NCBI RefSeq assembly: GCF_000378505.1
Contig: NZ_KB899993.1
Span: 62,001 to 126,000, forward strand
Direction: 5' to 3'
Length of the DNA stretch: 64,000 nt
Origin: Modicisalibacter luteus DSM 23508
Lineage (GTDB): Bacteria > Pseudomonadota > Gammaproteobacteria > Pseudomonadales > Halomonadaceae
Shown: in pieces, positions 10,906-14,528 of the stretch
Position numbering within the stretch: position 1 is the first letter of the stretch
How the letters are laid out: every line of letters begins with the position of its first letter
Program-made: the position numbers and the translations under genes
The notes under the pieces: generated by a model
The model's input: only the letters and a program-made list of their open reading frames with translations
Told to the model about the DNA's origin: nothing
The model's database searches: none

Positions 10906-10982
10906 AGGACCGTAGCTCAGTTGGTTAGAGCGCCACGTTGACATCGTGGAGGTCAGCGGTTCAAATCCGCTCGGTCCTACCA
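10906..10982 (+). tRNA. tRNA-Val (anticodon GAC), copy 1
   Basis: 77 nt with encoded CCA. The acceptor stem is AGGACCG/CGGTCCT, the D-arm is gctcagttggttagagc, the anticodon stem-loop ccacg-TTGACAT-cgtgg gives anticodon GAC (codon GTC), and the T-arm is agcgg-TTCAAAT-ccgct. All four stems pair fully. Confidence 0.97.
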
Positions 10983-10999: not shown

Positions 11000-11076
11000 A
11001 GGACCATAGCTCAGTTGGTTAGAGCGCCACGTTGACATCGTGGAGGTCAGCGGTTCAAATCCGCTTGGTCCTACCA
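11000..11076 (+). tRNA. tRNA-Val (anticodon GAC), copy 2
   Basis: 77 nt with encoded CCA, identical to the first copy except for the last acceptor pair: AGGACCA/TGGTCCT instead of AGGACCG/CGGTCCT, a compensated change. It begins 17 bases after copy 1 and is probably processed from the same transcript. Confidence 0.97.
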
Positions 11077-11663: not shown

Positions 11664-12494
11664 TCACTCCCAGCCCGGCACGGCTGCACCTTTGAACAAT
11701 TCCTCGGCCTTGGCGGCGACTTCCTCGCTCTGGTAGGCATCGACGAGTTGCTGGATTGATTCACGGTCCTCGTCACCCTTGCGCACCACGATCAGGTTGA
11801 CGTAGGGCGATTCCGGACCTTCGCGAATCAGGGCATCGTCCAGGCTCAGGCCGGCCGGTTGGGCGAAGGTATTATTAATGAATGCCATGTCGACGTCCGG
11901 CAATACGCGCGGCAACTGGGCAGCTTCAATTTCCCGGAACTCGAAGTTATGCGGGTTCTCGGCGATATCGATCGGCGTCGCCTCGAGGTTGGTCGGATCC
12001 TTGAGCTCGATCAGCCCTTCGTTGTGCATCAGGATCAGTGCGCGGCCCTCATTGGAGGGGTCGTTGGGCAGTGCAATGGTGGCGCCATCGGGCAGGGCGT
12101 CGATGCTGTCGTACTTCTCGGAGTAGGCGCCGATCGGGTAGACGAAGGTGCGTCCGGCAATGGCGAAGTCGTAGCCGCGATCCTCGACCATGCTGCGCAT
12201 GTAAGGTTCGTGCTGATAAGCGTTGGCGTCCAGGCTGCCATCGGCCAGGGCGGCATTAGGCGAGACGTAGTCCGTAAACTCTACAATCTCTACTTCCAGA
12301 TCGTGATTTTCCTTGGCCAGGCGCTTAGCGACTTGCATGACTTCGGTTTCAGGTCCAGCGACGGTGCCGACCTTGATCGAGGACGACTCGGCCTCGTCGT
12401 TACCGCCGCAGCCGGCGAGAAGGAGGCTGCCGAGCAGGGCCGCTGCGCCTAACAGGCGGGCGGGGCCGAAACGTTGCGACAGGGATGGCATCAT
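11664..12494 (-). CDS. metQ: Methionine ABC transporter substrate-binding lipoprotein
   Basis: Periplasmic D/L-methionine-binding lipoprotein of the NlpA/MetQ family. A signal peptide with lipobox LLLAGC is followed by GTVAGPETEVMQVAKRLAKE, DGSLDANAYQHEPYM and the C-terminal FKGAAVPGWE, all family hallmarks. The frame is open upstream to 12644, but ATG 12494 (followed by a second ATG at 12491) has AAGGAG 7 bases before it and puts the signal peptide at the N-terminus. 276 residues. Third gene of the metNIQ operon. Confidence 0.95.
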   Translation of the reverse strand: MMPSLSQRFGPARLLGAAALLGSLLLAGCGGNDEAESSSIKVGTVAGPETEVMQVAKRLAKENHDLEVEIVEFTDYVSPNAALADGSLDANAYQHEPYMRSMVEDRGYDFAIAGRTFVYPIGAYSEKYDSIDALPDGATIALPNDPSNEGRALILMHNEGLIELKDPTNLEATPIDIAENPHNFEFREIEAAQLPRVLPDVDMAFINNTFAQPAGLSLDDALIREGPESPYVNLIVVRKGDEDRESIQQLVDAYQSEEVAAKAEELFKGAAVPGWE

Positions 12495-12567
12495 TCGATA
12501 TCTCCTTGCTGATGATGGTAGCTCGTCACCATGGTGATGGCGGGCCAGTGTTTCAAGCCGTAACCGG

Positions 12568-13221
12568 CTATTTATGATCCGCCTTGCGGACCAGGGCGTC
12601 GCCGAGGCTCTGGAAGCCCTGAACCATGACGACCAGGATGGCAACGGTGATTAGCATGACGACGGGGTTGAAGCGGTTATAGCCGTAACGAATCCCCAGA
12701 TCGCCGAGGCCGCCGCCGCCAACGGCGCCGGCCATGGCCGAATAGCTCACCAGGGTAACCGCGGTGATCGTCAGCCCGGTGATAATGCCGCCGCGAGCTT
12801 CCGGTAGGAGTACCTTGGTAATGATCTGATATGGCGTAGCGCCCATGGATTGAGCGGCTTCGACCAGGCCGGGCGGGACCTCATTGAGCGCTCCTTCGAC
12901 CAGGCGTGCCACGAATGGGATGGCAGCGAGAGTCAGTGGAACGATGGCGGCGTTGGTGCCGATTGAACTACCGACGATAAAGCGGGTAAACGGAATGATC
13001 GCCACCATCAGAATGATGAACGGAATCGAACGTCCGATATTGGTAATCATGCCGAGTGCGGTGTTCAGAGTCGGCATGGCCAGGATTTGTCGAGGGCGGG
13101 TCACGTAGAGCAGTACGCCCAATGGCACGCCAAGGGCGGCGGCGACAAGGCCCGAGACACCCACCATATAAAGGGTATCAAGGGTAGCCATCAGGATCAG
13201 TTCAAGCATTGCGCTGGACAT
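12568..13221 (-). CDS. metI: Methionine ABC transporter permease
   Basis: Inner-membrane permease of the MetNIQ importer, 217 residues as in E. coli. It has five or so transmembrane helices and the EAA loop VEAAQSMGATPYQIITKVLLPEA that docks on MetN. RSIPFIILMVAIIPFTRFIVGSSIG is typical of MetI. ATG 13221 is preceded by GGAGG at 9 bases and overlaps the metN coding end by 20 bases, pointing to translational coupling. Confidence 0.95.
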   Translation of the reverse strand: MSSAMLELILMATLDTLYMVGVSGLVAAALGVPLGVLLYVTRPRQILAMPTLNTALGMITNIGRSIPFIILMVAIIPFTRFIVGSSIGTNAAIVPLTLAAIPFVARLVEGALNEVPPGLVEAAQSMGATPYQIITKVLLPEARGGIITGLTITAVTLVSYSAMAGAVGGGGLGDLGIRYGYNRFNPVVMLITVAILVVMVQGFQSLGDALVRKADHK

Positions 13222-14245
13222 GGCCAAGCACCTCCACTTGCAGGTCATGTGACTTGAGGTAGGCGAGTGCCTGCTGCGTCTTTTCCTGTGGCCCGATCAG
13301 TTCCGCAATCATCAGACCCAGAGTGCGTTCCTGAATCGACTCGACCTTGGCTTCGAGAATGCTTACATCAACGTTACATTCGCGGGCGAGGCGTGAGATC
13401 AGCGGTGTCGAAACCGCATCGCCGGTAAATGCCAGGCGTACCACAGGATGAGTGTGCGGGCCGGGTCTGGCCTCCATACGATCGATCAGGGCCTGGGGTG
13501 GGTCGAGTTCCAGAAAGGCGTTGAGGAATTCTCGGCCCAGGCGTGTGCTAGGCGAGGTGAAAAAGTCGCCTACCTCGGCCTCCTCGACCAGCTTGCCTCC
13601 CGAAATCAGGCCAACCTTGTGGCAGATTGACTTGACCACTTCCATTTCATGAGTGATCAGCAGGATGGTCAGCCCGAGCTTGCGATTGATGTCTTTGAGC
13701 AGCTCGAGGATCGATTGCGTGGTTTGAGGATCAAGGGCTGAAGTCGCCTCGTCGCAGAGCAGAACCTTGGGCCGGCTGGCCAGGGCGCGAGCAATGGCGA
13801 CACGTTGTTTCTGGCCACCGGAGAGTTCGGCCGGATACTTGGCATGTTTGTCACTCAGCCCGGTGAGATCCAGCAGGGGCTGGACTCGCTCGCGTATCTC
13901 GCGTTTGGCTACGCCCATCAATTCCAGGGGCAGGGCGACGTTATCAAAGACCGTGCGCGATGCCAGCAGGTTGAAGTGTTGGAAGATCATGCCAATGCGG
14001 TGGCGTGCCTGGTTGAGCTCCTGCCTGCCGAGCGAGGTGAGTTCCTGGCCATCGACGAAGATGCGACCGGTGGTGGGGCGCTCAAGCAGATTGACGCAGC
14101 GAATCAACGTCGATTTGCCGGCACCGGACAGGCCGATGACGCCGTAGATTTCCCCCTGCGCTACATGCAGGTCGGTGGGTTTGAGGGCATGGACCGCCTG
14201 GGGACCCTTGCCATACGTCTTGGAAATATTCTCGAGTGTGATCAT
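13202..14245 (-). CDS. metN: Methionine ABC transporter ATP-binding protein
   Basis: ATPase subunit of the methionine importer. 347 residues: ABC domain with Walker A GLSGAGKST, Q-loop GMIFQHFNLL, signature LSGGQKQRVAIARAL and Walker B VLLCDEATSALD. A C-terminal NIL domain (about 265-347; FTGDAVSTPLISRLARE) binds methionine and mediates feedback inhibition in this family. First gene of the operon. Its 5' leader carries a SAM-II-like element and a terminator, so expression is likely controlled by S-adenosylmethionine. Confidence 0.96.
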   Translation of the reverse strand: MITLENISKTYGKGPQAVHALKPTDLHVAQGEIYGVIGLSGAGKSTLIRCVNLLERPTTGRIFVDGQELTSLGRQELNQARHRIGMIFQHFNLLASRTVFDNVALPLELMGVAKREIRERVQPLLDLTGLSDKHAKYPAELSGGQKQRVAIARALASRPKVLLCDEATSALDPQTTQSILELLKDINRKLGLTILLITHEMEVVKSICHKVGLISGGKLVEEAEVGDFFTSPSTRLGREFLNAFLELDPPQALIDRMEARPGPHTHPVVRLAFTGDAVSTPLISRLARECNVDVSILEAKVESIQERTLGLMIAELIGPQEKTQQALAYLKSHDLQVEVLGHVQRNA

Positions 14246-14368: not shown

Positions 14369-14396
14369 AAAAAAAAGGCCACCCTGGTGGGTGGCC
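14369..14396 (-). terminator. Intrinsic terminator in the metN leader
   Basis: On the minus strand ggccaccc-acca-gggtggcc (8-bp perfect stem, 4-base loop) is followed by eight T. It stands about 120 bases upstream of the metN ATG and 14 bases after the riboswitch core, so it is an attenuator rather than the end of another gene: no minus-strand gene lies between it and the promoter. Confidence 0.85.
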
Positions 14397-14410
14397 ATCA
14401 ACGCTGGACA

Positions 14411-14485
14411 CACCCTTTTAGCTGCACTTTCCGGAACACGAGGCTCCGGAGGCGCCCGCAATCCGGGTACAAATCGGCGCCTAAA
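14411..14485 (-). promoter_or_regulatory. SAM-II-like riboswitch controlling metNIQ
   Basis: Minus-strand RNA reads tttaggcgcc-GATTTG-tACCCggATTGC-gggcgcc, an extra tccgga hairpin, then gtgca-GCTAAAA-GGGTG. This matches the SAM-II core as I know it: P1 stem (here ggcgcc/ggcgcc), loop GAUUUR..ACC..AUUGC, 3' strand GCUAAAAAGGG. Loop ACCC (14465-14468) can pair with 3' GGGT (14412-14415) as the pseudoknot. The inserted hairpin between P1 and the 3' strand resembles long-loop SAM-II/SAM-V variants. It sits directly after a strong promoter and before an intrinsic terminator. Confidence 0.8.
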
Positions 14486-14499
14486 ATAATGTGCGCAAG

Positions 14500-14528
14500 A
14501 GTTTAAGAAGCGCAAGGGAAAGTGTCAA
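14500..14528 (-). promoter_or_regulatory. Sigma-70 promoter of metNIQ
   Basis: Reading the minus strand: TTGACA (14528-14523), a 17-bp spacer and TAAACT (14505-14500). The expected start, near 14493, is about 8 bases before the riboswitch P1 stem, which is what a riboswitch leader requires. Confidence 0.75.

Follow-up and report, generated by a model that had tools for sequence, protein, structure and literature searches.

What controls methionine uptake in Modicisalibacter luteus, whose metNIQ operon is preceded by a leader that resembles a SAM-II riboswitch and is passed over by Rfam? A scan of the window (the whole 64,000-nt stretch of DNA analyzed here) at curated Rfam cut-offs returned two tRNAs only, and the leader was not called. 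We consider it likely, with a probability of roughly 0.86, that the leader is a SAM-II riboswitch of metNIQ, in a hairpin variant common to most Halomonadaceae examined, and that it is a transcriptional OFF switch. Judging from its sequence, it very probably senses S-adenosylmethionine (SAM) and stops transcription.

Anatomy and conservation of the metNIQ leader

The leader occupies 14528-14369 of the minus strand (Table 1). It opens with a promoter, after which come the SAM-II core, the hairpin, GCTAAAAGGG, the 14-nt linker and, last, an intrinsic terminator. The original prediction had described a SAM-II-like riboswitch with an inserted hairpin upstream of metNIQ, and its description held to the base: the promoter, the core and the terminator with its eight T were all located, and the CACCC of the terminator 5′ arm lies where it had been placed. 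Downstream stands metNIQ, in keeping with the position of SAM-II ahead of methionine or SAM genes. The true start of metQ is probably inside the listed TTG-start ORF, because the family match begins at residue 64 or later. The other neighbor of the leader is a divergent plus-strand ORF from 14694, which we take to be riboflavin-synthase-like, so the terminator can serve only the transcript directed to metN. No match to MetJ was found in the window's genome. Two near-identical tRNA genes with 20 nt between them lie elsewhere in the window, on the plus strand (10906-10979 and 11000-11073).

Table 1. Features of the metNIQ operon and its leader, in window coordinates.
Feature	Position	Strand	Details	Basis
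metQ	11664-12644	-	NCBIfam TIGR00363 MetQ/NlpA family, 288.1 bits (cut-off 228.85)	
metI	12568-13248	-	NCBIfam NF008049 MetI, 252.7 bits (cut-off 212)	
metN	13202-14245	-	best NCBIfam match TIGR02314 ABC_MetN, 482.8 bits, slightly below cut-off (499.7)	
Promoter	14500-14528	-	-35 TTGACA 14528-14523, spacer 17, -10 TAAACT 14505-14500	sequence
SAM-II P1 stem and its loop	14451-14481	-	GGCGCC 14481-14476 with GGCGCC 14456-14451	
P1 loop elements		-	GATTTG 14475-14470; P2a strand ACCC 14468-14465; ATTGC 14462-14458	
P2 5′ strand TTGC	14458-14461	-	within P1 loop	
Inserted hairpin, 8 bp	14430-14450	-	14443-14450 with 14430-14437	folds, covariation
Hairpin letters		-	arm TCCGGAGC, loop CTCGT, arm GTTCCGGA; immediately 3′ of P1	
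Loop L3 remnant AAGTGCA	14423-14429	-	identical in 114/144 distinct leaders	
P2 3′ strand GCTAAA(A)	14416-14422	-	invariant in 29-row alignment; also part of the motif used to select homologues	
P2a 3′ strand GGGT(G)	14411-14415	-	invariant in 29-row alignment; also part of the motif used to select homologues	
Conserved 14-nt linker TGTCCAGCGTTGAT	14397-14410	-	loop and inner helix of antiterminator	
Antiterminator	14389-14415	-	GGGTG 14411-14415 with CACCC 14389-14393, plus inner pairs	RNAfold
Intrinsic terminator	14369-14396	-	GGCCACCC 14396-14389, loop ACCA, GGGTGGCC 14384-14377, eight T 14376-14369	

A blastn search with the leader across 97 genomes gave strong matches inside the same GTDB family. 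All 29 of the best homologues, the window not counted, preserve the arrangement of the parts while differing in hairpin sequence; their core motif is constant by construction, as it is in the counts of 144 and 150 distinct leaders given below, which come from loci L007-L272, chosen by core motif, and form an uneven sample. P1 closes a loop with GATTTG and TTGC, the arrangement that marks SAM-II (RF00521), and is fully paired in 136 of the 144 distinct leaders; 34 carry GACGCC/GGCGTC, in which A-U replaces G-C. A linker pattern search, in which the linker is conserved by construction, gave 118 named loci. In 107 of them metN lies downstream, no more than 600 nt away and in the same orientation; of the remaining 11, six end within 381 nt downstream and five are from Salinicola (counts among the matches listed).

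All 150 distinct leaders have a promoter of this kind, made up of a box within one mismatch of TTGACA and a -10-like box at a spacing of 16-18 nt (17 nt in 139), compared to 1.4% of 20,000 positions drawn at random from those loci. Since Rfam gives no match over cut-off, one might suppose that this is a plain terminator resembling SAM-II by chance. However, core, promoter and hairpin are all conserved and orthologues score over the cut-off (see below); on the strength of conservation, promoter statistics and orthology, we reject a chance resemblance.

Relationship to SAM-II and the inserted hairpin

The SAM_alpha model (RF00521) gave the window leader 17.8 bits, with a cut-off of 36, and aligned to its 5′ half only (model positions 10-43); over the whole genome, six weak matches were obtained, among which the leader ranked first (E 0.28). 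The curated cut-off describes a contiguous consensus without an insert, and by this measure the leader falls outside the family. In contrast, metN leaders that lack the hairpin, which occur in Terasakiispira (G034), Phytohalomonas (G022), Larsenimonas (G057) and other genera, exceed the SAM_alpha cut-off in four genomes (G034, 47.8 bits; G201, 38.9; G203, 38.4; G022, 36.9) and score below it in others (Larsenimonas, 29.6; G030, 27.8; G020, 25.4; G029, 23.3). The G034 and G022 leaders keep the linker and a terminator, while those of G201 and G203 have a different linker and no U-tract within the stretch read; metN was found downstream of leaders L096, L098, L114 and L130. The GATTTG, TTGC and GCTAAA core letters of the window are the same as in the hairpin-less orthologues that score as SAM-II. 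Sequence comparison thus indicates that the hairpin leaders are orthologous with canonical SAM-II across the insertion. Because hairpin-less orthologues pass the cut-off, we attribute the low score of the window leader to its inserted hairpin, and refer to it as a variant derived from SAM-II rather than a plain member. The covariance-model comparison suggested with the original prediction came out negative for the window's leader, with SAM-V as well as with RF00521, and positive with RF00521 for the four hairpin-less orthologues over the cut-off. Neither the SAM-V (RF01826) nor the SAM-II long loops (RF01726) model matched the leaders (E ≤ 10 in two scans, E ≤ 1 in the scan of hairpin-less leaders).

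Other candidates were rejected. The remaining Rfam families (Phe_leader, anti-hemB, isrD, suhB, istR and others) all scored below their own cut-offs, in alignments that lean on the terminator. The top weak match, Phe_leader (24 bits, cut-off 55), might hint at an attenuator that depends on the ribosome and a leader peptide instead of a riboswitch, but the leader ATG (14398) opens 11 codons that run through the terminator with, by eye, no further methionine codon, and the conserved part is an aptamer-like core, making such an attenuator very improbable. A long-range "rod" fold of the full leader, which was the RNAfold optimum in three of four folded rows, was not adopted because its inner part breaks, by eye, in relatives having AAATAC for AAGTGC.

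We then built a covariance model, R1, from 29 rows comprising hairpin leaders only. R1 matched 240 of 275 family genomes (E ≤ 0.01), all but 17 of them with E < 1e-10, whereas RF00521 exceeded its cut-off in 9 of the 275, four of these at metN. As the weakest R1 matches (e.g., G202, E 0.006) represent look-alike terminators only (L090-L093, L122) and some best matches are tandem SAM-II elements (G127, G179), 240 is somewhat high as a count of metN leaders. The hairpin-less metN leaders were found among the weaker R1 matches. In the GTDB class Gammaproteobacteria, R1 matched 119 of 369 sampled genomes (E ≤ 0.001), reaching ordinary SAM-II: 67 of the 94 class genomes with an RF00521 match (E ≤ 1e-4) are also on its list of 119.

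An insert of 12-46 nt was present in 138 of 144 distinct leaders. Its mean fold energy was -14.6 kcal/mol, with a mean z of -3.6 relative to 100 mononucleotide shuffles each, and z was below -1 in 132/138. In the 29-row alignment, the six outer pairs of the hairpin hold in 87.4% of cells, compared to 61.9% when shuffled, and 46 cells are changed on both sides, compared to a shuffled mean of 14.5; 0/500 shuffles were as high in either measure, and sliding one hairpin strand abolished the covariation signal. The number of hairpin pairs with a double change in this alignment (5, with 4.7 in shuffles) was not above chance. Homologues clearly keep the core and pairing, and the hairpin shows the covariation that the original prediction had suggested looking for in related genomes; together with the hairpin-less orthologues over the cut-off, this supports its description of the element. 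In most rows, no gap separates the hairpin from the 3′ strand of P1, and its first pair forms in 106/137; it probably stacks under P1, and with it in place the P2 3′ strand is transcribed later.

When 40 chosen rows were placed on a MetN tree, the eight hairpin-less rows called for two changes, compared to 7.4 in shuffles (0/500 as low). The tree is also compatible with one change, so a single gain or loss of the hairpin is possible. Two further families of the class, f197 and f169, have hairpin inserts at this SAM-II position that look independent (L273; L276 and L281). What is new is that most of a family (the Halomonadaceae examined) carries a hairpin within a SAM-II that is canonical in other respects; in the open-licence literature searched, we found no account of a hairpin inserted in SAM-II, nor of SAM-II in Halomonas. 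Given that the hairpin is new, that its position is conserved, and that a ligand cannot be read from sequence, the aptamer, though derived from SAM-II, could have come to recognize a different ligand, SAH for instance, in which case the hairpin would belong to that change. We find this improbable, as GATTTG, TTGC and GCTAAA match those of hairpin-less orthologues that score as SAM-II and the regulated operon serves methionine uptake.

Expression platform and predicted switching

With SAM as the presumed ligand, the parts of the leader suggest two mutually exclusive states. At low SAM, GGGTG would pair with CACCC in the terminator 5′ arm, forming an antiterminator, and metNIQ would be transcribed. 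At high SAM, the ligand would be held between GATTTG, TTGC and GCTAAA, and P2 and P2a (CCC/GGG) would sequester GGG, such that the terminator could form and transcription would end ~120 nt before the metN start. GGG can thus join either the loop, as P2a in the SAM-bound form, or the terminator 5′ arm, as antiterminator, and we predict that high SAM turns transcription OFF. The original prediction had proposed the same exclusive pairings, and GGG was able to pair with the terminator 5′ arm in 132 of 133 foldable leaders (of 144). Its proposal that ACCC/GGGT forms the bound pseudoknot needs amendment: the pairing stands, but the ligand-binding helix is P2 (TTGC with GCTAA), and ACCC/GGGT is its outer extension, P2a. 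We mapped this assignment from the SAM-V/SAM-II description in the available part of PMC6061858. A fourth P2a pair, A-U, is not general, as the A before loop CCC is present in 110/144 distinct leaders (missing in 33/143) and the pair fails in 9/29 alignment rows. The complementary strands of P2 and P2a are present in all 29 rows, but are invariant or nearly so; since these and the antiterminator strands hardly vary, covariation gives the switch itself little backing. Lineages differ in the inner helix of their antiterminators, which is TGTC/GACA in Phytohalomonas and Terasakiispira.

The antiterminator stretch of the window has an RNAfold energy of -10.6 kcal/mol, as do most antiterminators, and the terminator stem ~ -17 kcal/mol, most terminators falling between -16 and -18. 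The terminator being ~6 kcal/mol more stable, the ON state would need kinetic control, with the antiterminator forming first.

In genus g1, the close relatives L106 and L108-L110 (G004, G012, G005 and G007) keep core and hairpin but have lost linker and terminator, so that the expression platform has changed inside a single genus. Such leaders would fit a riboswitch that works mainly on translation or via Rho, the terminator being secondary. However, the GGG strand of the window is ~165 nt away from the metN start and a U-tract of TTTTT or longer is in place in 129/144 distinct leaders, so we hold a main role in translation or via Rho to be unlikely, and the transcriptional OFF switch remains our preferred reading.

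Leaders parted from metN occur in Salinicola (genus g4). At L162, L186, L189 and L206, opposite-strand genes, which we take to be look-alikes of the rut pyrimidine-use cluster, lie directly downstream of the leader, and metN was not found in the 5-7 kb examined; the fifth Salinicola locus offered 890 nt of room. At L111 (G221), metN starts 1.2 kb from the leader, with one regulator-like gene in between. These five cases may be described as orphan riboswitches. R1 scores in nine Salinicola genomes range from E 3.5e-23 to 1.8e-7, compared to values near 1e-30 to 1e-24 for most genomes of g2, g11, g13 and g20, and several Salinicola leaders are visibly decayed (L107, L111-L113) or split (L078, L085). 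Loss of the metN neighbor thus accompanies loss of the switch, which fits the prediction of a cis role. The copies at L162, L186 and L189 are fairly intact despite having no adjoining metN, which leaves an opening for a trans-acting reading: the terminated ~120-nt leader, released at high SAM, would also be a trans-acting small RNA, with the near-invariant linker UGUCCAGCGUUGAU as a seed exposed exactly in the SAM-bound state, and the intact Salinicola copies would survive on that function. A 12-mer complementary to the linker had 72 exact matches among 61 family genomes, in 44 of them. At most 38 of these are the leader itself, leaving ~34, compared to 14 for a back-to-front control pattern; by eye, and considering exact pairing only, the remaining matches recur only within genera, and codon bias could be the cause of the excess. 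We regard the trans-acting function as doubtful. Two loci of genus g5 (L115, L120) combine a strongly diverged core with a terminator and the linker TTTGTCCAGCGTTT, and the 1.5 kb downstream of each gave no match to MetN.

Distribution and comparison with known systems

The original prediction regarded SAM-II as mainly alphaproteobacterial and a transcriptional version in a gammaproteobacterium as notable. Neither argument was supported. SAM-II turned out not to be rare in the class: RF00521 matched 94 of 369 sampled genomes (E ≤ 1e-4), 30 of them over the cut-off; the GTDB class Gammaproteobacteria includes the former betaproteobacteria. TTTTT occurs 20-80 nt downstream in 40 of the 53 SAM-II core matches read in 48 loci, four of the 53 being repeat matches of one core. 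To the extent that the sources were available, the majority of SAM-II is held to be transcriptional (PMC6061858), most often with terminators in alpha- and betaproteobacteria (PMC2258182), and terminators are ordinary in SAM-II (PMC1273637). A regulon reconstruction based on Rfam profiles reported SAM_alpha only in Rhizobiales and Rhodobacterales, in the part of PMC4239095 consulted.

Compact SAM-II-like cores also occurred in tandem, ~110-130 nt apart, as 28 distinct pairs (L079-L084, L086-L088, L094, L095, L118, L125-L128, L131, L133-L147 and L150-L152; genus g20, with L083 and L126 in g11). The first core has a terminator, and the predicted antiterminator would pair with GCTAAAGCG itself; three of four typed downstream ORFs had no Pfam match. 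Tandem SAM-II has been published, with 44 examples in the section of PMC9481103 available.

If the main reading is correct, most of a bacterial family gains a control of methionine uptake that Rfam scans have overlooked, and one loop position of the compact SAM-II pseudoknot can accommodate a complete hairpin. The Rfam SAM-II model could be widened to take in the hairpin.

As far as the portions of the sources at hand describe them, several known systems share features with this leader. SAM-V (RF01826; PMC6061858) has the type of pseudoknot and ligand site predicted here but is translational, and SAM-II long loops (RF01726; PMC2864571) is likewise an expansion of SAM-II but is found in Bacteroidetes and marine sequences; both models miss the leaders. 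A betaproteobacterial metXZ element (PMC4239095), compared by description, also has a predicted pseudoknot and a terminator-antiterminator ahead of methionine genes, in that case metX or metZ, and this "novel" element may be SAM-II under another name. The Sinorhizobium meliloti metZ SAM-II (PMC9373788), for which termination has been proposed, is similar in its predicted SAM-dependent release of a riboswitch-containing small RNA, but it is canonical, with a hairpin unmentioned in the text available, and precedes metZ rather than metNIQ. The closest likeness is to SAM-II (SAM_alpha, RF00521; PMC1273637, seen in part), with which the leader shares P1, the GATTTG, TTGC and GCTAAA core, a predicted pseudoknot, a promoter just upstream, a downstream terminator and methionine genes, and from which it differs in its score below the cut-off, its conserved 14-nt linker and the variable hairpin between the P1 3′ strand and L3.
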